A stretch of 64,000 nucleotides of DNA from Agapetus fuscipes. Lineage: Eukaryota; Arthropoda; Insecta; Trichoptera; Glossosomatidae. Where the stretch lies: NCBI GenBank assembly GCA_951799405.1, contig OX637342.1, positions 19,515,298 through 19,579,297 of the forward strand. The letters run 5' to 3'. The notes under the pieces are model-generated. The model worked only from the letters and a program-made list of their open reading frames with translations, was not told the DNA's origin and ran no database searches. Every line of letters begins with the position of its first letter. The first letter of the stretch is position 1. Below are positions 33,270 through 64,000 of the stretch, piece after piece. Position numbers and translations under genes: made by a program.

Positions 33270-34458
33270 CGGGACAACTTCGAGATTTTTTATTTCGTGG
33301 CTTGGGAATTTTCACTTAAATTTTTTTTTTTAAATTGATAATAATTTATGTCTTTAATTAACATAATTAGAAATAAAAAAGAAACTTCTATCCGTCCGTC
33401 TTTATAAAAAAGATACATCGAAAAATAATCGGATATTTGTTTTAAAGTTCCAACTTCAAGATTTTTATTTCGTAGCTTGGGAATTTCCACTTAAATTTTA
33501 TTGGCTAAATTGATTAATTATGTCTTAAATTAACATAATTTGAAATAAAAAAGAAACTTGTATGCGTTCGTGTTTGAAAAAAATTACATCAAAACATAAT
33601 CGGAATTTTCTTATAAAGTACCAAATTCAAGATTTTTTATTTCGTAGTTTGGGAGTTTACACTTAAATTTTATTGGCTTAATTGATTAATTATGTCTTTA
33701 ATTAAGATAATTTGAAATAAAAAAGAAACTTCTATGCGTCCATGTTTGAAAAAAATTACATCAAAAAATAATCGGAATTTTCTTATAAAGTACCAAATTC
33801 AAGATTTTTTATTTCGTAGCTTGGGAATTTCCAATTAAATTTTATTAGCTTAATTGATTGATTATGTCTTAAATTAACATAATTTGAAATAAAAAAGAAA
33901 CTTGTATGCGTCCGTGTTTGAAAAAAATTACATAAAAAAATAATCGGAATTTTCTTATACAGTACCAAATTCAAGATTTTTTATTTCGTAGCTTGGGAAT
34001 TTCCACTTAAATTTTATTGGCTTAATTGATAATTTATGTCTTTAATTAAGATAATTTGAAATAAAAAAGAAACTTGTATGCGTCCGTGTTTGAAAAAAAT
34101 TACATCAAAAAATAATCGGAATTTTCTTATAAAGTACCAAATTCAAGATTTTTTATTTCGTAGCTTGGGAATTTCCACTTAAATTTTATTAGCTTAATTG
34201 ATTGATTATGTCTTAAATTAACATAATTTGAAATAAAAAAGAAACTTGTATGCGTCCGTGTTTGAAAAAAATCCATCGAAAAATAACCGGAATTTTCTTA
34301 TAAAGTACCAAATTCAAGATTTTTTATTTCGTAGCTTGGGAATTTCCACTTAAATTTTACTGGCTTGATTGATTTATTATGTCTTTAATTAACATAATTT
34401 GAAATAAGAAAGAAACTTGTATGCGTCCGTGTTTGAAAAAAATTACATAAAAAAATAA
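33270..34458. repeat. ~172-bp tandem satellite, about 7 units
   Basis: The segment 'gtaccaaattcaagatttt' recurs at about 33618, 33790, 33962, 34134 and 34305. Units also share 'tagcttgggaatttccac' and 'aaagaaacttgtatgcgtcc'. The first units (from 33270) are more diverged. Confidence 0.92.
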
Positions 34459-35053
34459 CATTTTGTCAAATATGACAAAATAACTTTATTGCAATATTGC
34501 TGCAAGCTTGCATTTTCATCATGTTTCAAATATGAAAAAACAAGTTTGCTTTTTGTTTGATACAAACTTGCATGACGGGCTGTCAAAAATACGATTAGCA
34601 GTGTTGCCGTTTTATCGATTTTGCTAGAGGTTTCGAGCTCTTTTTTTTTTAAGGCTGTGTTAAAAAAAAAATCCCGTTGTTTTTAAAAGTATGCTTCTGA
34701 TACTTTATGGCCTTAGTAAAAGAGTGACAATAATGAAAATAATCACGCGTGTTAAATAATTTTGTATCCTAATTTTAAAATTGTTTTTTTGTATATAACT
34801 TAAAAATGACGCCCGAATAAAATATTTAAGAAAACTCGTTTTTTTGTATTTTTTTGCTTGCATTTTGTTGTTTTGTATTTTGGAAATATTTTTTTTCTTC
34901 ATAATTATAGAATGATACAAATTCTAGTTTATGGTGTGATTTTTAATAGAATAATGTGAAAAGTTTTTGAGAATAACTGTTGAAAAGAAAGAACTATTTT
35001 CAAGAATTAAATAAGTTGATTAGTTTCAGTTGTTTCATATTATCGCAACATAT
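34459..35053. other. No recognised gene
   Basis: AT-rich. 'tttgatacaaacttgc' near 34556 recurs at 41209, hinting at another dispersed repeat. Confidence 0.3.
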
Positions 35054-35527
35054 TGTTACGAAATTAGGGTTCAATTGTCTTCAAATTAAAAATACACAGG
35101 TCTTCTTCAATAGTTATTTATTTTACACAGTTACAAAATTTATTTTCACACTACTTTCTCGATTATTCTACTTAGTTTCGGTTCACTGATCAGATGGCTT
35201 CGATGTATTTGTTAGTCGCTATGATACTGGCCCGCTCTGCAGGCCATTCGCACCTTTATACTCTGTAGAGCAGTATGATCTAGAACCAAAGTTGCTAGAC
35301 GGTTCCAGAGTAATTATTACTTCTCGACGCTTCACGTACTACCTAGAGATACAACCAAAATCCTACCTACAAATGTAATACAGAATTCCTATAATTATAA
35401 CAAGTACCTACTTAGCCTAGAGAATTCTACACTTATACACAATTATCGATCCTACCTACCTATACCTATGAGGACTCTTATAACTATAACTACCCATACT
35501 TATTTCAATATTTATATTTACATAACA
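35054..35527 (-). repeat. 3' LTR of family-2 copy 1
   Basis: 474 bp. It reads identically to 38444-38917. The minus strand contains a TATA-like 'gtataaagg' and AATAAA-type signals. Confidence 0.95.
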
Positions 35528-36853
35528 CTACCCCCCACCTAGACTGTTTCGTCCCGGAACAGTCTTGACTCTGTGTAGGTAGGGGCATGCTGATCCACGT
35601 CGACACCCTGTGGTCAGGAAGAAGTGGCAGTCCACGGATTTCTCCCCACTGGCTCTCGGCTGCGCTTGCTCGCAGCACACCATGACGCTGATGCCGACTC
35701 CCGAGAACACTGCTTCAATCATACTCCGGATTATCCGCCAGTCTCGATTAGCGCGGCCGCCACCCATCTTCGGTATTGCCAGACGCGCCTGCTGATCCTC
35801 CAACATGTAGTCACGCAGCTCAACAAGGCCGTCCCACAATGCCTTGTAGTCCTCTTCCAGGTTGCTGGAATCCGGGACAACCAGGCAGTATGCTTGTTGA
35901 CGCCCCTTCGGTAGTCTCAGAGCTCTTCCTTGCGGGCTGCTCGAGGGTTGCGGTTCTCCGAATTTGTATCGGAAGACCCGTGCAATTCCTCTAGACATAT
36001 CTAGATCTTCCGGTACACTGCATGCCAGTGTGTGGTCCCCAGTGACCTCAAATAAGTCCTTGTGGACTTCTGTGGTCACCCCATGGCGAATCTTCTGTCC
36101 CTCTTGCACCTTGCTCCAGAACGTCTCAAACAGGGGCGCTTCTTTGGATGCGACGCATTTTTGTACTCTCTGGGCGGGCTGGTCATTGTTTGACCACTTT
36201 GCTCTTTGAGTTGGCCGGTGGTTATCCTTCATTCGAGCTCCCGCCTCCTTGGTGTTGCTGATCTTGGACTCCAGGTTGGCGATGGTGTCCTTCGTCCTGG
36301 GCCCCTGCCCAGCTTCCAGCTGCTGGAGCTTAGTCTTAAGCCCCTTGTTCTGTCTCTCCAGGCTCAGCACAGTCTCGTGCAACTCGTCCCTCTCGGCCTC
36401 CGCCGTTCGCCGGACCCTTTCACTGCTGGCCAAGTTCTTCGTCAGCTGCCTGTTCTCCGTCTCCATGACTTTGACCTTTCTCTCGGCATCCTGGAGCTGT
36501 TTCCTCAGCCGTTTGTTCATCTCCATGGTGGTCTCTACATCCTTGCGGTCGTCTTCCAATTTCTCCGGTCCTTGAGACTTTGGGCACCTCGCGCTCAGGT
36601 GTCCTTGCTGGCCACACGTCCAGCAGTGCGCCTTCTGTCTCGTTGGCTCAAGTTGCTGCAGCACTTTTTCTATTATTTCCTCGGTTGTAGGTAGTTTGAC
36701 CTCCTCTGCCTTGATTGCACAAACCCTGGCGTGGCCCCTGATGGACTGTTTGACAGCCTCAAACTCGAGAGCTTGGCTGAGCGCCTCGTTCAAAGCCTTG
36801 GGATGGGCCAGTTTTACGGCTTGTTGCGTCTCCCATTCATTCCCGCAATCCAT
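35528..36853 (-). CDS. Family-2 Gag, C-terminal part: CCHC knuckle, coiled coil, macro-like domain, CCCH finger
   Basis: After the frame break near 36840 this frame holds: Gag end (residues 7-40); zinc knuckle CWTCGQQGHLSARC (77-90, perfect CX2CX4HX4C); a long heptad-rich coiled coil (about 105-185); a macro-like domain (about 261-394) with 'VHKDLFEVTGDHTLACSVPE', 'MSRGIARVFRYKFG' and 'LAIPKMGGGRANRDW' aligning in order with TARG1/OARD1-type ADP-ribose-binding folds; and a CCCH finger (C409, C417, C423, H427; CX7CX5CX3H). At the aligned position of the TARG1 catalytic Asp I see Ala, and the catalytic Lys is not evident, so binding without hydrolysis is more likely. The last codons are formed by the polypurine tract, and TAG touches the LTR. 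The ATG at 36853 is probably not a natural start. Confidence 0.85.
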   Translation of the reverse strand: MDCGNEWETQQAVKLAHPKALNEALSQALEFEAVKQSIRGHARVCAIKAEEVKLPTTEEIIEKVLQQLEPTRQKAHCWTCGQQGHLSARCPKSQGPEKLEDDRKDVETTMEMNKRLRKQLQDAERKVKVMETENRQLTKNLASSERVRRTAEAERDELHETVLSLERQNKGLKTKLQQLEAGQGPRTKDTIANLESKISNTKEAGARMKDNHRPTQRAKWSNNDQPAQRVQKCVASKEAPLFETFWSKVQEGQKIRHGVTTEVHKDLFEVTGDHTLACSVPEDLDMSRGIARVFRYKFGEPQPSSSPQGRALRLPKGRQQAYCLVVPDSSNLEEDYKALWDGLVELRDYMLEDQQARLAIPKMGGGRANRDWRIIRSMIEAVFSGVGISVMVCCEQAQPRASGEKSVDCHFFLTTGCRRGSACPYLHRVKTVPGRNSLGGG

Positions 36854-37805
36854 TTAGGAACTTGTCCACTGCCAAGCTCTCACAGATGTCGTCGGAGGCT
36901 GTCGGGTAAGCGTCTCGTACCAGGCGGGCGATGTCCATTTCAAACTCCTGGAGGCTCTCGTTGGGCTTCTGCACCCTTGTGTTCAGCTGCGACTTGTACA
37001 GCTGCTCCAGGCACTTGTGGCCATAGCGCATATCCAAGCGCTGCTTCAGCTGCCCAAAGTCACCACGGTTGTCCAGGGGTATGGCCTGCAGAACCCTGAG
37101 AGCGTCTCCTCGGAGCGACAGGCTGAGAACCGAAGCCTTCTTCTGCTGGCTCCAGGCTCCCATCATGGCAGCCGTCTCAAAGAGGGTCAAGTATTCCTCC
37201 CACGACGTCTTCCCGTCGAAGGTTGGGAGGTTGTGCTTTGCTAGGGAAGGGTCATCATCCCCTCTTGTGACCCTGGTTGGAGTTGAGCATCCCTGGTCGG
37301 TCTCGTCGTGAAGGCCGCCTTTGGGGGAGATTCTGGTGGACTCCATCTGGCACTTGTCAGCCAGCTCGGCACGCAGACGGTCCTCCAGGCTTGCCACACG
37401 GGCCTCAATCTCTGACATTGCTCGCGAGCTTTCTGCCACTTTCTTCTCCAGCACGGTCAGGTTGCTGGTCATCTTCTCCTCCAGCCCAGTCATCTTCTCC
37501 TCTAGCCCGGTCAGGTTGCTGGTCATCTTCTCCTCCATGGTTGCCAGGTCCTCCTTCATAGTCTTGGCGTTGTGTGTTAGCTCCTCCTTCATGGACTTTG
37601 TGATGCTGATATTTAGCTCGTCCAAGGCGCGGTCCCCTCCAGACGCCATGACAAAATATGCCGGGTCTTCGCCTGACTGTTCCAAGGCCTCTATGAGGCG
37701 TGCTTGTAAGGCCGCCTTTCCTCCTGAGGTCTCCAGGTCCCTCTCCAGAAGCTCATTTTTAAGCTCTGTGACTTTGAGGTCCTTGACGTTCACTTTGGTT
37801 GCCAT
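36837..37805 (-). CDS. Family-2 Gag, N-terminal part: SAP-like motif, coiled coil, Gag core
   Basis: Start ATG at 37805, 322 residues. Residues 8-42 ('LKVTELKNELLERDLETSGG' and the helix after it) fit a SAP DNA/RNA-binding motif. Residues 62-150 are a heptad coiled coil. Residues 192-322 are a Ty3-type Gag core ('FDGKTSWEEYLTLFETAA', 'LSLRGDALRVLQAIP', 'FEMDIARLVRDAYP'). Compared with copy 2 (61800 onward), a 4-base tandem duplication near 36843 creates an early stop and shifts the frame, so this copy cannot make the whole Gag unless frameshifting occurs. The frames on the opposite strand are shadows. Confidence 0.88.
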   Translation of the reverse strand: MATKVNVKDLKVTELKNELLERDLETSGGKAALQARLIEALEQSGEDPAYFVMASGGDRALDELNISITKSMKEELTHNAKTMKEDLATMEEKMTSNLTGLEEKMTGLEEKMTSNLTVLEKKVAESSRAMSEIEARVASLEDRLRAELADKCQMESTRISPKGGLHDETDQGCSTPTRVTRGDDDPSLAKHNLPTFDGKTSWEEYLTLFETAAMMGAWSQQKKASVLSLSLRGDALRVLQAIPLDNRGDFGQLKQRLDMRYGHKCLEQLYKSQLNTRVQKPNESLQEFEMDIARLVRDAYPTASDDICESLAVDKFLNGLRE

Positions 37806-38443
37806 TTTTTTTTAAATTTACTTCAAAACGAAAATATTTTTAAATTTATTTAATACAAGTTTTGAGTTTTATATATATAGCTGTTTTGAATACGTACTTT
37901 AGCAAAATAATAATTTATCTGATTACACTGATTGGTAGGTACTGTCTTTTAATATTTATTTTTAAATCACCAATATTTTTAACATAATAATGTCTGATAG
38001 TACATAATTATTTATTTCGTCTCAAGTCTCTCCAACACACTTGTAAACGAAGCACAGTTATTCAAAAACTTTTTCTCGATGAATCTGGAACGTTCTTTTG
38101 TAATATTTTTTTTTTTCAAGATTTTTATTTATTTATTTTATTTTTTTAATCACACACAATAATAAAAAAACTATGGTCCAATTTGATGACTTTCTCAATG
38201 CGGTAAAATAGTCATTATGTTATGTCCAGAATTATGTTCCATATGACGTTCCAGAATTTATAAGCAACTTGCTTTTGCGTCTTTTCTTTTAACAAAAATT
38301 TATTTAAACACTTGTTTTCACAAAAGTCAGTTCACACAAAGTTCAATTTGAATAAAGTTCATTTTAACACTATTTAATTTATTTTATTTATTTTTAGACA
38401 GAAGATCTTAATTTTTCTTGACAATTCCGCACCTGACGCCAAT

Positions 38444-38917
38444 TGTTACGAAATTAGGGTTCAATTGTCTTCAAATTAAAAATACACAGGTCTTCTTCAA
38501 TAGTTATTTATTTTACACAGTTACAAAATTTATTTTCACACTACTTTCTCGATTATTCTACTTAGTTTCGGTTCACTGATCAGATGGCTTCGATGTATTT
38601 GTTAGTCGCTATGATACTGGCCCGCTCTGCAGGCCATTCGCACCTTTATACTCTGTAGAGCAGTATGATCTAGAACCAAAGTTGCTAGACGGTTCCAGAG
38701 TAATTATTACTTCTCGACGCTTCACGTACTACCTAGAGATACAACCAAAATCCTACCTACAAATGTAATACAGAATTCCTATAATTATAACAAGTACCTA
38801 CTTAGCCTAGAGAATTCTACACTTATACACAATTATCGATCCTACCTACCTATACCTATGAGGACTCTTATAACTATAACTACCCATACTTATTTCAATA
38901 TTTATATTTACATAACA
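38444..38917 (-). repeat. 5' LTR of family-2 copy 1
   Basis: 474 bp. It reads the same as the 3' LTR. Its inner edge leads into the primer-binding site and a ~640-bp leader before the gag ATG. Confidence 0.95.
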
Positions 38918-41449: not shown

Positions 41450-42671
41450 AGTTCATTTTGAAAGTATCCTATAAAAAATAGGATTTAAAAAAAACCCCTC
41501 CTCCCTCAAATCATGTAGGTAAGATGATAGTTCAATTCAAAATCACAATTAGTTTTTTTACATGTTTATTGCTTTTATCTTGTATTTTATTTATATCGAT
41601 GTTTTATCTCGTTCTTTTTATAGATTTTGTACAAACGTTTAATTTTTTAATCTTCGATTTTGAATTTTAAATAAATATTTTTTGAAAAATTACTTGGAAT
41701 TTATTGAATAAATAGGAAATAATAGCCGTTGAAAGTATGTGTAGAAAATGCAGATTATTATTTTATAAGCACTCTATGATAAGCACGCTCGTCAAATAAA
41801 TTATGATACAAAATGAATAAAATTTCAAAGATGGCATTGTTTTGCAAAAGTGCTATCTACACATTTTTTGTAAAAGCTTTTCAATAAAAAATTGCAAGTA
41901 AAACAGTTTCCTGTAAACTTTTGTTGTAAATGTTGGCGACATCGACTTTCATTGTCTATGGTTCTTTTAGTGCTGCCAATGTAGAAAGATTTACTCTGCT
42001 GAAATGTCAGATAGAGTTAAAAAAAAGTGTTCGTTCAAGATTATGATCATTTATCATTCAAACCATAGTGATCGATTTATGTTAATGAATCTTCATTGAA
42101 TTACAAATCAAAATCAGGGAACTCATCTGAGTATTAATGGTATTTGTTGTTGAATTTCTATGAACCTTCACTTAACCATGATTGGAAGGAAGATGTGACA
42201 TTTTCGTTCACCTGGCCACATTTATCATTAGTTAAAATCGAGTGACGGTTCGTTAGTTATGTCAAATTAAAATAATCTTATTTTTTTATCTTTCTCGTAT
42301 TATGAATTAAAACTGTTCGTTCATAGTTATTAAATATAATTTCCCTTTGTAACCCCATCACAAAATCTCACCGTCACCTTCCAATTTATGCACCACCATC
42401 AATATCACAAAACATTTAAAAAATAAATATCGATTTTGTTTACAATCCATCTCACTAATGCATTACAACATGATTATCAAATCAATTAATCCACAAAAGT
42501 AAAACAACTAATTAATTTCAATGTGAACAACAAGGATAAATAATATATTTTTGAATGAACGTGTAAAAAAATGTTTTTGAAGTACAGGTAGATAATATGT
42601 AAGAAAAAAAAGTGTTAAATTCTATAGAATGTAGTTAGATGTATCTAAATTAAAAATTAGTTGAAATAGTG
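41450..42671. other. Upstream of the Popeye exon; no other gene seen
   Basis: This AT-rich kilobase would contain the 5' UTR or preceding intron of the Popeye gene. I see no upstream coding exon. Confidence 0.4.
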
Positions 42672-43208
42672 ATGTTTTTTTTAAGTGCCTTGTCCGTGGC
42701 TGTTACAGATAGTATCGTGAACTCTTCTCTAAGCCATGACAGGGGGTTCTCTTCCTCCCCCAGCCCCGCCAACACTTCTGACTTCTCGCCTTCCAGCTTA
42801 GAGGACTTGTTCACGTCCACAGAGATGGGGCTCGTAGACCACTCCTCCTATCCTGCGGCGCCGATGGAGAACTGGGGGAACGATACGTCGCTAGATAAAA
42901 TATTCAACTCCGCTGTGTTTGGCGTGACCTACTGCACTAAATGGAAGCAAGCAAATCACATATATTTCCAGCTGGCCAATGCGTTCTTCTTCTTGTCCTA
43001 CCTGGCCCCCAGCGGCACGTACGGCTTGCTGTTCCTGCGCTGCACGCTCATGGTCGGCTGTGCGTTTGTGGCGCTGTGGGCGTGGACCATAGAGTGCTTC
43101 TTCGATGCTGTTGTGTGGAATATTGTGTTTGTGGTGATCAACTTCGTGCACATCTCCATCTTGCTGTTCTACCTCCGGCCCATCAAGTTCTCCAAGGAAG
43201 TAGAGGAG
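42672..43208 (+). CDS. Popeye domain-containing protein, first coding exon (partial gene)
   Basis: The exon starts at the ATG 42672 (the codon before it is GTG) and ends at a consensus donor GAG|GTGAGT after 179 codons, phase 0; the frame beyond the donor is intronic and stops soon. An acidic, Ser-rich N-terminus with NxS/T sites is followed by 'YCTKWKQANHIYFQLANAFF' and three hydrophobic helices (about residues 95-165), then 'LRPIKFSKEVEE'. This is the Popeye family pattern: extracellular N-terminus, three membrane spans, then the cytoplasmic cAMP-binding Popeye domain, which must lie in later exons. POPDC/Bves proteins act in muscle and epithelial membranes, bind cAMP and modulate TREK-type channels in vertebrates. 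High GC and codon order differ sharply from the flanking AT-rich DNA. No downstream exon was seen up to 64000. Confidence 0.9.
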
Positions 43209-43444
43209 GTGAGTCCCTACATAAGCTTCACTTCCTTCTGTGTCTAGAAAATAAATATAATGCAAATCTTGTATTAAAAGTAAGTCAGGTGTGCAGGAAG
43301 TACAACATGGCTCAAGATTTGCTGAGCTCAGATCAAGGTCTGTGGGAGACTCGCGTCCTGAGCAGACAAGACACTATCCTTTCACATGTGCTTATATGTT
43401 GTCAAAAAATTAAGTGACTAATTACAATTTGTAACTCTGTCATC

Positions 43445-59800: not shown

Positions 59801-59959
59801 GTGTAAGGAACCGATCAGAAATTTTGACCGGCTTATTGATAAGCTAGTCGCAAAGGTGACCGATCGAACAAAGAACGATCGGACGAATCATCTGAAATCG
59901 GTTGGACAAGAACGACCGCTCAAGCAATGGTCGCACGGCCGACGCTACGCTACGTATCA

Positions 59960-60246
59960 TGGGGCTTCCACACGCTTGCCAACCCATCACAAGTCAAGCG
60001 CACAGTGTGTCGTCTAGAACATGCTAGCTGGACAAAATTTTGTCTAATGGACTAATTTTGTCCAGCTAGCATGTTCTAGACGACACACTGCACACTTGGC
60101 TTGTAGCTAAGCGCACAGTGTGTCGTCTAGAACATGCTAGCTGGACAAAATTAGTCCATTAGACAAAATTTTGTCCAGCTAGCATGTTCTAGACGACACA
60201 CTGTGCGCTTGACTTGTGATGGGTTGGCAAGCGTGTGGAAGCCCCA
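59960..60246. mobile_element. Palindromic foldback MITE (Harbinger-like TSD)
   Basis: Arms 59960-60090 and 60116-60246 are perfect reverse complements over 131 bp around a 25-bp loop. TCA flanks both sides (59957-59959, 60247-60249). Each arm contains its own inverted repeat ('cgtctagaacatgctagctg' and complement). The ends 'tggggcttccacacgcttgc' are shared with the 32566-33040 element. It is non-coding. Confidence 0.95.
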
Positions 60247-60289
60247 TCACGGAAAAGCGTCGATCGCTGGCGCAGTATTCTCCAGCGCG

Positions 60290-60643
60290 CATTGAGGTAT
60301 ATATACTAGAGACGCAACGTTTCTCGAAACACGTGGCACTCTGTAGTTTGGTTAAAAGTCTTACTCGAGAAAAACCCGATTTTGAGGCTCGTCAGTCTCA
60401 CGCAGACTTACACAGCGAGCGGATGTGACAGGTGGTAATACATATTGCTATAAATGGCTAAATATTGTGGTTGGAGTTTTCAAACACCTTTGTTTGTGAA
60501 CTTGATCAATTATAAAACATGCACAAGTTAAAAACACATAGGATCCTAGCACAAATTAATTATTAAAACAATTGTTAAACTTTAAATATTTCGTCGCTGT
60601 GATATCAAACCGACATATCGAACGCATAAGTAGAGCTACATAT
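60290..60643. repeat. Fragment of the 29761-31735 repeat family
   Basis: It shares 'gaggtatatatactagaga', 'ctcgaaacacgtggcac', 'gctataaatggctaaatatt' and 'tttgtgaacttgatcaatta' with that locus in the same order. It is interrupted at its 3' side by the family-2 gag element. Confidence 0.8.
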
Positions 60644-61118: not shown

Positions 61119-61136
61119 TGGCGTCAGGTGCGGAAT
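61119..61136 (+). other. Primer-binding-site candidate
   Basis: 'tggcgtcaggtgcgg', beginning TGG two bases after the LTR, is complementary to a tRNA CCA end. The tRNA is not identified. Confidence 0.65.
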
Positions 61137-61799
61137 TGTCAAGAAAAATTAAGATCTTCTGTCTAAAAATAAATAAAATAAATTAAATAGTGTTAAAATG
61201 AACTTTATTCAAATTGAACTTTGTGTGAACTGACTTTTGTGAAAACAAGTGTTTAAATAAATTTTTGTTAAAAGAAAAGACGCAAAAGCAAGTTGCTTAT
61301 AAATTCTGGAACATCATATGGAACATAATTCTGGACATAATTCTGGACATAACATAATGACTATTTTACCGCATTGAGAAAGTCATCAAATTGGACCATA
61401 GTTTTTTTTATTATTGTGTGTGATTAAAAAAATAAAATAAATAAATAAAAATCTTGAAAAATATTACAAAAGAACGTTCCAGATTCATCGAGAAAAAGTT
61501 TTTGAATAACTATCCTTTGTTTACAAGTGTGTGAATGTACATTAAGTACCTACCTGTGTGTTTGAAAGACTTGAGACGAAATAAATAATTATGTACTATC
61601 AGACATTATTATGTTAAAAATATTGGTGAATTAAAAATAAATATTAAAAGACAGTACCTACCTACCAATCAGTGTAATCAGACAAATTATTATTTTTGCT
61701 AAAGTACGTATTCAAAACAGCTATATATATAAAACTCAAAACTTGTATTAAATAAATTTGAAAATATTTTTGTTTTGACGTAAATTTTGAAAAAAAAAA

Positions 61800-64000
61800 A
61801 TGGCAACTAAAGTGAACGTCAAGGACCTCAAAGTCACTGAGCTTAAAAATGAGCTTCTGGAGAGGGACCTGGAGACCTCAGGAGGAAAGGCAGCCTTACA
61901 AGCACGCCTCATAGAGGCCTTGGAACAGTCAGGCGAAGACCCGGCATATTTTGTCATGGCGTCTGGAGGGGACCGCGCCTTGGACGAGCTAAATATCAGC
62001 ATCAACAGTAACCTGACAGGACTGAAGACTGAGATGGCTGACAACGCCAAGACCCTGGAGGAGAAGATGACCGACCTGAAGGCGGAGATGGCTGACAACG
62101 CCAGGACCCTGAAGGCGGAGATAGCGGATAGTCTCACAACCCTGAAAGGAGAAATAGAGGAGAAGATGACAACCAACCTCTCGGCCCTGAAGGGGGAAAT
62201 GGAGACTCGGATGTCAAACCTGGAAGACCGTCTGCGTGCCGAGCTGGCTGACAAGTGCCAGATGGAGTCCACCAGAATCTCCCCCAAAGGCGGCCTTCAC
62301 GACGAGACCGACCAGGGATGCTCAACTCCAACCAGGATAACAAGAGGGGATGATGACCCTTCCCTAGCCAAGCACAACCTCCCAACCTTCGACGGGAAGA
62401 CGTCGTGGGAGGAATACTTGACCCTCTTTGAGACGGCTGCCATGATGGGAGCCTGGAGCCAGCAGAAGAAGGCTTCGGTTCTCAGCCTGTCGCTCCGAGG
62501 AGACGCTCTCAGGGTTCTGCAGGCCATACCCCTGGACAACCGTGGTGACTTTGGGCAGCTGAAGCAGCGCTTGGATATGCGCTATGGCCACAAGTGCCTG
62601 GGGCAGCTGTACAAGTCACAGCTGAACACAAGGGTGCAGAAGCCCAACGAGAGCCTCCAGGAGTTTGAGATGGACATCGTCCACCTAGTACGAGACGCTT
62701 ACCCGACATTCCCTGATGACATCTGCGAGAGCTTGGCAGTGGACAAGTTCCTGAACGGATTGAGAGAATGGGAGACGCAGCAAGCAGTGAAGCTGGCTCT
62801 TCCGAAGACGTTGAACGAGGCGCTAAGCCGAGCTCTCGAATTTGAGGCTGTCAAACAGTCCATCAGGGGCCACGCCAGGGTTTGTGCAATCAAGGCAGAG
62901 GAGGTCAAACTACCTACAACCGAGGAAATAATAGAAAAAGTGCTGCAGCAACTTGAGCCAACGAGACAGAAGGCGCACTGCTGGACGTGTGGCCAGCAAG
63001 GACACCTGAGCGCGAGGTGCCCAAAGTCTCAAGGACCGGAGAAATTGGAAGACGACCGCAAGGATGTAGAGACCACCATGGAGATGAACAAACGGCTGAG
63101 GAAACAGCTCCAGGATGCCGAGAGAAAGGTCAAAGTCATGGAGACGGAGAACAGGCAGCTGACGAAGAACTTGGCCAGCAGTGAAAGGGTCCGGCGAACA
63201 GCGGAGGCCGAGAGGGACGAGTTGCACGAGACTGTGCTGAGCCTGGAGAGACAGAACAAGGGGCTTAAGACTAAGCTCCAGCAGCTGGAAGCTGGGCAGG
63301 GGCCCAGGACGAAGGACACCATCGCCAACCTGGAGTCCAAGATCAGCAACACCAAGGAGGCGGGAGCTCGAATGAAGGATAACCACCGGCCAACTCAAAG
63401 AGCAAAGTGGTCAAACAATGACCAGCCCGCCCAGAGAGTACAAAAATGCGTCGCATCCAAAGAAGCGCCCCTGTTTGAGACGTTCTGGAGCAAGGTGCAA
63501 GAGGGACAGAAGATTCGCCATGGGGTGACCACAGAAGTCCACAAGGACTTATTTGAGGTCACTGGGGACCACACACTGGCATGCAGTGTACCGGAAGATC
63601 TAGATATGTCTAGAGGAATTGCACGGGTCTTCCGATACAAATTCGGAGAACCGCAACCCTCGAGCAGCCCGCAAGGAAGAGCTCTGAGACTACCGAAGGG
63701 GCGTCAACAAGCATACTGCCTGGTTGTCCCGGATTCCAGCAACCTGGAAGAGGACTACAAGGCATTGTGGGACGGCCTTGTTGAGCTGCGTGACTACATG
63801 TTGGAGGATCAGCAGGCGCGTCTGGCAATACCGAAGATGGGTGGCGGCCGCGCTAATCGAGACTGGCGGATAATCCGGAGTATGATTGAAGCAGTGTTCT
63901 CGGGAGTCGGCATCAGCGTCATGGTGTGCTGCGAGCAAGCGCAGCCGAGAGCCAGTGGGGAGAAATCCGTGGACTGCCACTTCTTCCTGACCACAGGGTG
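61800..64000 (+). CDS. Family-2 Gag, copy 2: SAP-like, Gag core, CCHC, coiled coil, macro-like (3' end outside window)
   Basis: One frame is open from the ATG at 61800 for 733 codons to the window edge, without the break seen in copy 1. Order: SAP-like 8-42; coiled coil 62-150; Gag core about 193-360; CX2CX4HX4C knuckle 394-407; coiled coil about 420-500; macro-like region about 578-711 ('SRGIARVFRYKFG', 'AIPKMGGGRANRDW'); start of the CCCH finger at C726. Only about 25 residues should be missing. It matches copy 1 closely except in the first coiled coil (78 versus 79 residues, mostly different). Function in particle assembly and RNA binding is inferred from Gag; the macro-like part suggests ADP-ribose or nucleotide binding, with the catalytic Asp position changed. 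Confidence 0.9.
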   Translation, partial: MATKVNVKDLKVTELKNELLERDLETSGGKAALQARLIEALEQSGEDPAYFVMASGGDRALDELNISINSNLTGLKTEMADNAKTLEEKMTDLKAEMADNARTLKAEIADSLTTLKGEIEEKMTTNLSALKGEMETRMSNLEDRLRAELADKCQMESTRISPKGGLHDETDQGCSTPTRITRGDDDPSLAKHNLPTFDGKTSWEEYLTLFETAAMMGAWSQQKKASVLSLSLRGDALRVLQAIPLDNRGDFGQLKQRLDMRYGHKCLGQLYKSQLNTRVQKPNESLQEFEMDIVHLVRDAYPTFPDDICESLAVDKFLNGLREWETQQAVKLALPKTLNEALSRALEFEAVKQSIRGHARVCAIKAEEVKLPTTEEIIEKVLQQLEPTRQKAHCWTCGQQGHLSARCPKSQGPEKLEDDRKDVETTMEMNKRLRKQLQDAERKVKVMETENRQLTKNLASSERVRRTAEAERDELHETVLSLERQNKGLKTKLQQLEAGQGPRTKDTIANLESKISNTKEAGARMKDNHRPTQRAKWSNNDQPAQRVQKCVASKEAPLFETFWSKVQEGQKIRHGVTTEVHKDLFEVTGDHTLACSVPEDLDMSRGIARVFRYKFGEPQPSSSPQGRALRLPKGRQQAYCLVVPDSSNLEEDYKALWDGLVELRDYMLEDQQARLAIPKMGGGRANRDWRIIRSMIEAVFSGVGISVMVCCEQAQPRASGEKSVDCHFFLTTG

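Follow-up and report, generated by a model that had tools for sequence, protein, structure and literature searches.

A predicted TARG1/OARD1-type macro domain in the Gag of a pol-less LTR element of Agapetus fuscipes, probably derived from a Ty3/gypsy Pol

Why should the Gag of a retrotransposon that has no pol end in a macro domain, and where did that domain come from? The question is raised by 64,000 nucleotides of DNA from Agapetus fuscipes (contig OX637342.1, positions 19,515,298 to 19,579,297; this whole stretch is called the window), in which two copies of an element with long terminal repeats (LTRs) are found. Copy 1 lies on the minus strand, and copy 2 runs off the window end and was followed in the locus that continues it (L041). 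Their Gag has the domain order SAP, capsid-like part, CCHC knuckle, coiled coil, macro and CCCH finger. The architecture and the family assignment of this macro-bearing element are regarded as almost certain. An earlier, sequence-only reading of the window had described a Gag that carries a macro domain within a pol-less LTR element. Both copies are indeed without pol between their LTRs. In copy 2 the fusion to Gag is present as a single frame open from 61800 on; in L041 it gives 758 amino acids from Met, includes the CCCH finger and ends where the 3' LTR begins. The domain, however, appears to be no invention of Gag; it is better assigned to the Pol of a Ty3/gypsy element, where it stands behind the integrase.

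The domain is predicted to have the macro fold of the TARG1/OARD1 type, as the sequence-only reading had proposed. When window 63450-63998 was searched against the PDB with phmmer, five OARD1/C6orf130 sequences were matched over 132-133 residues with E values of 1.7e-10 to 2.0e-10, and the next match stood at 0.62. A structure model built from 14 aligned sequences, which took the place of a model from the single sequence, supports the fold. In the copy 2 Gag the motifs DLFEV, SRGIA, AIPKM and GGGRANRDW start at residues 583, 604, 676 and 681. Pfam alone did not list Macro for the copy 2 protein even at E 10, and the trimmed window domain was unmatched at E 1; the same family (PF01661) matches five of seven clade members at E <= 1, the best at 1.2e-05, with the window member unmatched.

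The places of Lys84 and Asp125 of TARG1 were counted along the human OARD1 sequence from the PDB alignment, with the N-terminus of that protein added. In the window family Pro stands for Lys84 (Gag 644) and Ala for Asp125 (Gag 685), and the earlier observation that both catalytic residues are replaced therefore stands. The window domain shares with TARG1/OARD1 loop residues that are ADP-ribose contacts there. The window domain and human TARG1/OARD1 (C6orf130) are alike in fold and align over about 133 residues, but the window family differs at the two catalytic places, sits in Gag or Pol and has a CCCH finger behind it. According to two papers, Lys84 and Asp125 are residues whose change inactivates TARG1 (PMC8501950, PMC5725667), and with Pro and Ala in their places the window domain is a member of the fold family and not the expected TARG1 enzyme. 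On balance, the alignment suggests that the domain of the window lineage binds ADP-ribose without hydrolysing it. The features on which this part of the argument rests are the following.

61800..63998, plus strand: copy 2 open reading frame (ORF) for Gag, which continues beyond the window
63418..63998, plus strand: 3' module identical to the 3' end of Pol in the autonomous copy L050, with 63418 as the leftmost identical position
63519..63935, plus strand: predicted TARG1/OARD1-type macro domain of copy 2, Gag 574-712, by sequence relation and model
63729..63731, plus strand: Pro codon where TARG1 has Lys84
63852..63854, plus strand: Ala codon where TARG1 has Asp125
35669..36085, minus strand: copy 1 macro domain, with the same DNA sequence as in copy 2

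The origin of the domain is indicated by a full-length Ty3/gypsy copy in the same genome (L050/L051). It has LTRs (99.8% identical over 521), a Gag and a Pol in the order typical of Ty3/gypsy. L051 contains the 5' LTR and the Gag, from SAP to CCHC; Pol occupies a different frame that overlaps with the Gag frame. The Pol frame of L050, 1,422 amino acids long, encodes an aspartic protease, reverse transcriptase (RT), RNase H and an integrase with its C-terminal module, followed by the macro domain and a CCCH finger. Pfam names no Macro in this Pol, where the macro part is identical to that of the window, and no chromodomain was found in the Pfam scan of it at E <= 0.01. Copy 2 and L050 are the same over the last 583 nt of the window, which start at 63418, and the identity begins in the linker behind the integrase. 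The macro domain stands behind the integrase in the Pol of L050 and of its relatives, the Gag-macro fusion looks derivative, and very probably it is the product of an internal deletion in which protease to integrase were lost. When an RT piece of L050 was used as query in the genome (618 Mb), the best 137 of 2,034 candidates were scored; all are 100% identical and all lie on scaffolds C1-C9. The 1,422-residue frame is present in 103 of the 137, and from this frame length these copies would be expected to carry a macro domain, as L050, the one that was read, does. Eight of the 137 RT matches lie in open frames of 1,834-1,861 amino acids, which look like Gag and Pol joined in a single frame.

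Is this arrangement restricted to Agapetus? A protein search with the end of Pol as query gave 39 proteins (P0002-P0040). The macro domain was matched behind integrase sequence in 32 of them (P0002-P0033) and was unmatched in P0034-P0040. Among the names are the longhorn beetles Aromia moschata and Molorchus minor and one powdery mildew record; these names do not cover the proteins that run from RT to integrase and macro. The latter proteins are 76-88% identical to L050 in RT, 67-78% in integrase and 36-45% in macro, ranges that do not include P0029, whose macro sequence is truncated (56% over 41). In P0034, which lacks a macro domain, the identity is 64% in RT and 50% in integrase. All seven relatives in which RT, integrase and the two catalytic columns can be seen keep Lys and Asp, and these relatives likely erase ADP-ribose. 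Among all 34 aligned rows, many of them near-identical, Lys is present in 29 and Asp in 28; Pro and Ala are found only in the window and in P0001, Arg replaces Lys in P0008, and the remainder are gaps. In a tree of the enzyme parts (12 rows, four without macro) the eight macro bearers group together (99/100), with the pairs L050 and P0002 (100/99) and P0025 and P0027 (100/100). The macro tree of 14 rows, in which human OARD1 is the only host gene, shows the same two pairs (85/91 and 88/88) and is otherwise mostly unresolved; L050 has a long branch there, 1.22 vs 0.39 for P0002. One capture followed by descent would fit these trees.

Beetle gene models with a capsid, an integrase tail and a macro domain but no RT match over 21 residues make up 20 of the 32 macro-bearing proteins, and P0026 has the integrase core in addition. 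They are not claimed as independent pol-less families, for they are gene models from which masking of transposon domains could have removed RT. The sequence-only reading had looked to a homolog search for further Gag-macro fusions; with Gag 560-733 as query none was obtained among 818 candidates at E <= 1e-3. The isolated domain gave one match among 151 candidates, P0001, which begins in the integrase tail by comparison with L050 and may be from the same species. No relative was confirmed in the viral contigs and genome contigs searched. In P0010 a macro-bearing Pol piece is followed by Gag; the record is filed under the powdery mildew Erysiphe pulchra and possibly holds insect DNA.

The copies in the window have the structure of a Gag-only LTR element. 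Copy 1 spans 3,864 bp (35054-38917, minus strand). Its LTRs of 474 nt each show no differences, the 4-nt target duplication is ATAT, a stretch resembling a primer site follows 2 nt after the LTR, and the stop codon of Gag lies within a polypurine stretch. Its Gag frame is interrupted in the capsid region and so divided into two ORFs. The 5' LTR of copy 2 differs from its own 3' LTR in L041 at 2 of 473 positions. The remaining features of both copies are listed here.

35054..35527, minus strand: copy 1 3' LTR, an exact repeat of 38444-38917, with ATAT flanks on both sides of the element
38444..38917, minus strand: copy 1 5' LTR, an exact repeat of 35054-35527
36837..37805, minus strand: first Gag ORF of copy 1, its frame broken in the capsid region
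35528..36853, minus strand: second ORF of copy 1, with the remaining Gag, coiled coil, macro and CCCH; the ORF ends within the polypurine stretch, its stop codon directly next to the 3' LTR
35573..35641, minus strand: copy 1 CCCH zinc finger (Pfam zf-CCCH, E 5.6e-04, 20.2 bits against a cut-off of 20.5)
60640..60643, no strand: copy 2 target site duplication ATAT, with its partner in L041
60644..61116, plus strand: copy 2 5' LTR, TGTTA...TAACA, 97.5% identical to the copy 1 LTR
61119..61138, plus strand: copy 2 primer-binding-site-like sequence, 2 nt behind the LTR, with the same letters in 11 of 15 copies and variants in 4 of 15
61818..61925, plus strand: SAP domain of the copy 2 Gag (Pfam SAP, E 2.4e-08)
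62355..62950, plus strand: capsid-like region of the copy 2 Gag, approximate, named by place and homology (it aligns with the L051 Gag); Pfam gave no capsid match that exceeds its cut-off
62979..63026, plus strand: CCHC zinc knuckle of the copy 2 Gag (zf-CCHC, E 0.0015, below the curated cut-off)
63045..63413, plus strand: coiled coil of the pol-less copies, with no match in L050 or L051
63975..63998, plus strand: start of the C-terminal CCCH zinc finger, the remainder of which was read in L041

The coiled coil matched Pfam Myosin_tail_1 (2.4e-11) and the PDB (0.0014), but it is not claimed to be a captured piece of myosin, as coiled-coil composition may explain these matches. Elsewhere in the window, a nearly perfect inverted repeat, whose 143-nt arms (97%) are separated by 3 nt, lies just upstream of copy 2 (59959-60247), and a tandem array in which the unit recurs about every 172 nt lies beside copy 1 (33500-34486). 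A frame at 42669-43247 reads like that of a putative Popeye domain protein. The first scaffold of the genome opens with CCTAA repeats, which are of the arthropod telomere type.

The macro-bearing copies are numerous and young. In a genome search with the macro domain, scores were obtained for the best 150 of 1,085 candidates. Every one of the 150 reached at least 99%, and the counts are lower bounds. Seventy-seven of the 150 tie at the top score of 100%, and the frame is 744-834 amino acids long in 131, 1,422 in one and shorter in 18. Two macro matches on one strand (G000:C33:10381840 and 10385344) lie 3.5 kb apart with equal frames, as in an LTR-sharing tandem array. Twenty copies were fetched, chosen by macro identity. 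Both LTRs lie within the stretch in 15; the other five stay outside the LTR count, and the pairs of copy 2 and L050/L051 were measured separately. The LTR pairs have 0 or 1 mismatch in all 15 copies, one of them with 3 gap columns, and the LTR is longer by 44 nt in five. A 4-nt target duplication NTAN is present at all 15 measured insertions (flanks of L031-L049) and at both window copies (35050-35053 and 60640-60643).

Diversity along the copies is uneven (profile of 14 copies, from which the shorter L044 was left out). By region, the silent diversity (piS) in the fetched copies is 0.122 for SAP (18 of 20 sources usable) and 0.103 for the capsid (14 of 20), with amino acid diversities of 0.006 and 0.012, and falls to 0.005 in the coiled coil (16 sources) and 0.003 in the macro module (20 sources; nonsynonymous diversity, piN, 0.000). 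Low macro diversity is not claimed as selection, since the copies had been chosen by macro identity and the low value alone proves nothing. Copies 1 and 2, which were not picked by the macro search, show 0 differences over 549 nt of the macro stretch (copy 1 at 35606-36154, minus strand; the region was earlier described as conserved, and it is identical) vs 2.5% in the LTR. High 5' and low 3' diversity inside the same copies points to recombination, by which a young 3' module was joined to older 5' parts.

How might such an element have arisen and how might the domain serve it? An internal deletion in an autonomous parent would have removed protease to integrase and left the 3' end of Pol fused to Gag, and the coiled coil would have taken the place of the lost pol. 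The pol-less copies, which keep LTR ends, primer site and polypurine stretch, may be copied by the enzymes of autonomous copies; similar LTRs and a similar 5' region suggest such a partner. In the window lineage the macro domain would bind ADP-ribose without cleaving it, and could in this way act as a tether that holds particles or integration complexes on ADP-ribosylated targets of the host. In the relatives that keep Lys and Asp the domain may instead erase ADP-ribose, for example on proteins or on DNA ends at breaks. That a tether is the benefit to the element is a tentative proposal, and the whole explanation, a Pol-derived macro domain brought into Gag by deletion and serving as an ADP-ribose reader and tether, is given an even chance. 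A wider scenario is possible but rather unlikely, in which an insect Ty3/gypsy clade acquired a TARG1 macro domain behind integrase that guides integration by ADP-ribose or acts against PARPs, the window lineage turned from eraser to reader, and Gag-only parasites now carry the reader in their capsid protein. If true, this would connect LTR retrotransposons with the ADP-ribose system, over which animals and RNA viruses are known to fight. Because the relatives keep the catalytic pair and the window lineage lost both residues, the clade offers a natural comparison of eraser and reader. The family is also young and rich in copies, so natural insertions could reveal whether ADP-ribose directs integration.

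Several observations weigh against the reader and tether explanation. The NTAN preference at insertion sites needs no macro domain, and the module is too young for selection for a job in Gag to show. The single-sequence model (pLDDT 61), searched with Foldseek, gave no macro fold or match. One autonomous copy was read, L050/L051, and L050 could be a recombinant; as one 1,422-residue frame occurs among the 150 best macro matches, the other autonomous copies probably have a slightly different macro domain from that of the window. Among the relatives, macro identity lies far below RT identity, which would fit an arms race or weak constraint, and no CCCH match was found in P0007, P0025 and P0027. 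A single capture is only a possible reading of the macro tree, which is mostly unresolved and without an insect OARD1.

These points give room to other explanations. The macro-CCCH part could be jobless in the pol-less copies, the deletion having joined Gag to whatever 3' end was there, which was then kept for the polypurine stretch. The Gag stop codon overlaps that stretch and abuts the LTR, in agreement with such a passenger, and the module is too young for selection on it to show; however, the long frame is open through the domain in 131 of the 150 scored matches, though the copies are young, and the persistence of the fold and the catalytic pair at 36-45% identity argues that the domain is constrained in the Pol of the wider clade. 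A jobless module is thought possible, if doubtful. Alternatively, the domain could, like viral macro domains, remove or mask ADP-ribose that host PARPs attach to the proteins, RNA or cDNA of the element. The TARG1 fold, its fast change and the Lys and Asp of the seven relatives agree with this, and TARG1 is reported to remove Asp/Glu-linked ADP-ribose (PMC10933786) and ADP-ribose on DNA (PMC8501950, PMC5725667), and a coronavirus macro domain dampens the innate response (PMC10499221). But the window family is without both residues, a single change at either of which is described there as inactivating TARG1, and the position behind the integrase is that of chromatin readers; counter-defence is judged rather unlikely. 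A new capture by Gag of a host OARD1 domain, separate from the Pol-borne one, would be in line with the earlier reading, which placed the domain in Gag, and would suit the many Gag-macro copies; it is contradicted by the linker that copy 2 shares with L050, P0001 too starts in the integrase tail, and it is considered extremely improbable.

Chromodomains behind integrase have been linked to targeted insertion. The chromoviruses among Ty3/gypsy elements, which have the chromodomain at the integrase C-terminus, resemble L050 in an extra domain behind the integrase C-terminal module of Pol, but L050 has a macro domain and a CCCH finger there and no chromodomain match. NADAR, which is another family than macro, provides a further case of an ADP-ribose-related domain in Pol. 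In one study, Gypsy families of the brown alga Ectocarpus carry such a NADAR domain or, behind the integrase, a Tudor reader (PMC12477816); unlike the macro domain described here, the NADAR domain sits at the N-terminus of Pol, and the host is not an animal. Fish endogenous retroviruses carry macro domain ORFs (Basta et al. 2009, via the review PMC4977317; the reference is also in PMC10499221), and are alike in having a macro domain inside a retroviral element. They are reported as additional ORFs of vertebrate retroviruses, whereas in Ty3/gypsy the domain lies within Pol or Gag itself. Together with the chromodomains and the algal Tudor and NADAR domains, they are the nearest precedents. Extra domains are already known from gypsy Pol, and a macro domain behind a Ty3/gypsy integrase or in Gag was not found described in the searches of open-licence literature, which did not extend to repeat libraries such as Repbase; the earlier statement that a Gag with a macro domain is not known as described is to be taken with caution in view of the fish retroviruses.

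Gag-only non-autonomous LTR elements of the TR-GAG type have LTRs, a primer site, a polypurine stretch and Gag but no pol. The window element shows all of these, with an LTR pair and target duplication, a Gag frame and no RT or integrase, and in this it is like TR-GAG and other Gag-only elements. The TR-GAG papers found are on plants, and the window element differs in having a coiled coil and a macro-CCCH module that appears to derive from Pol.
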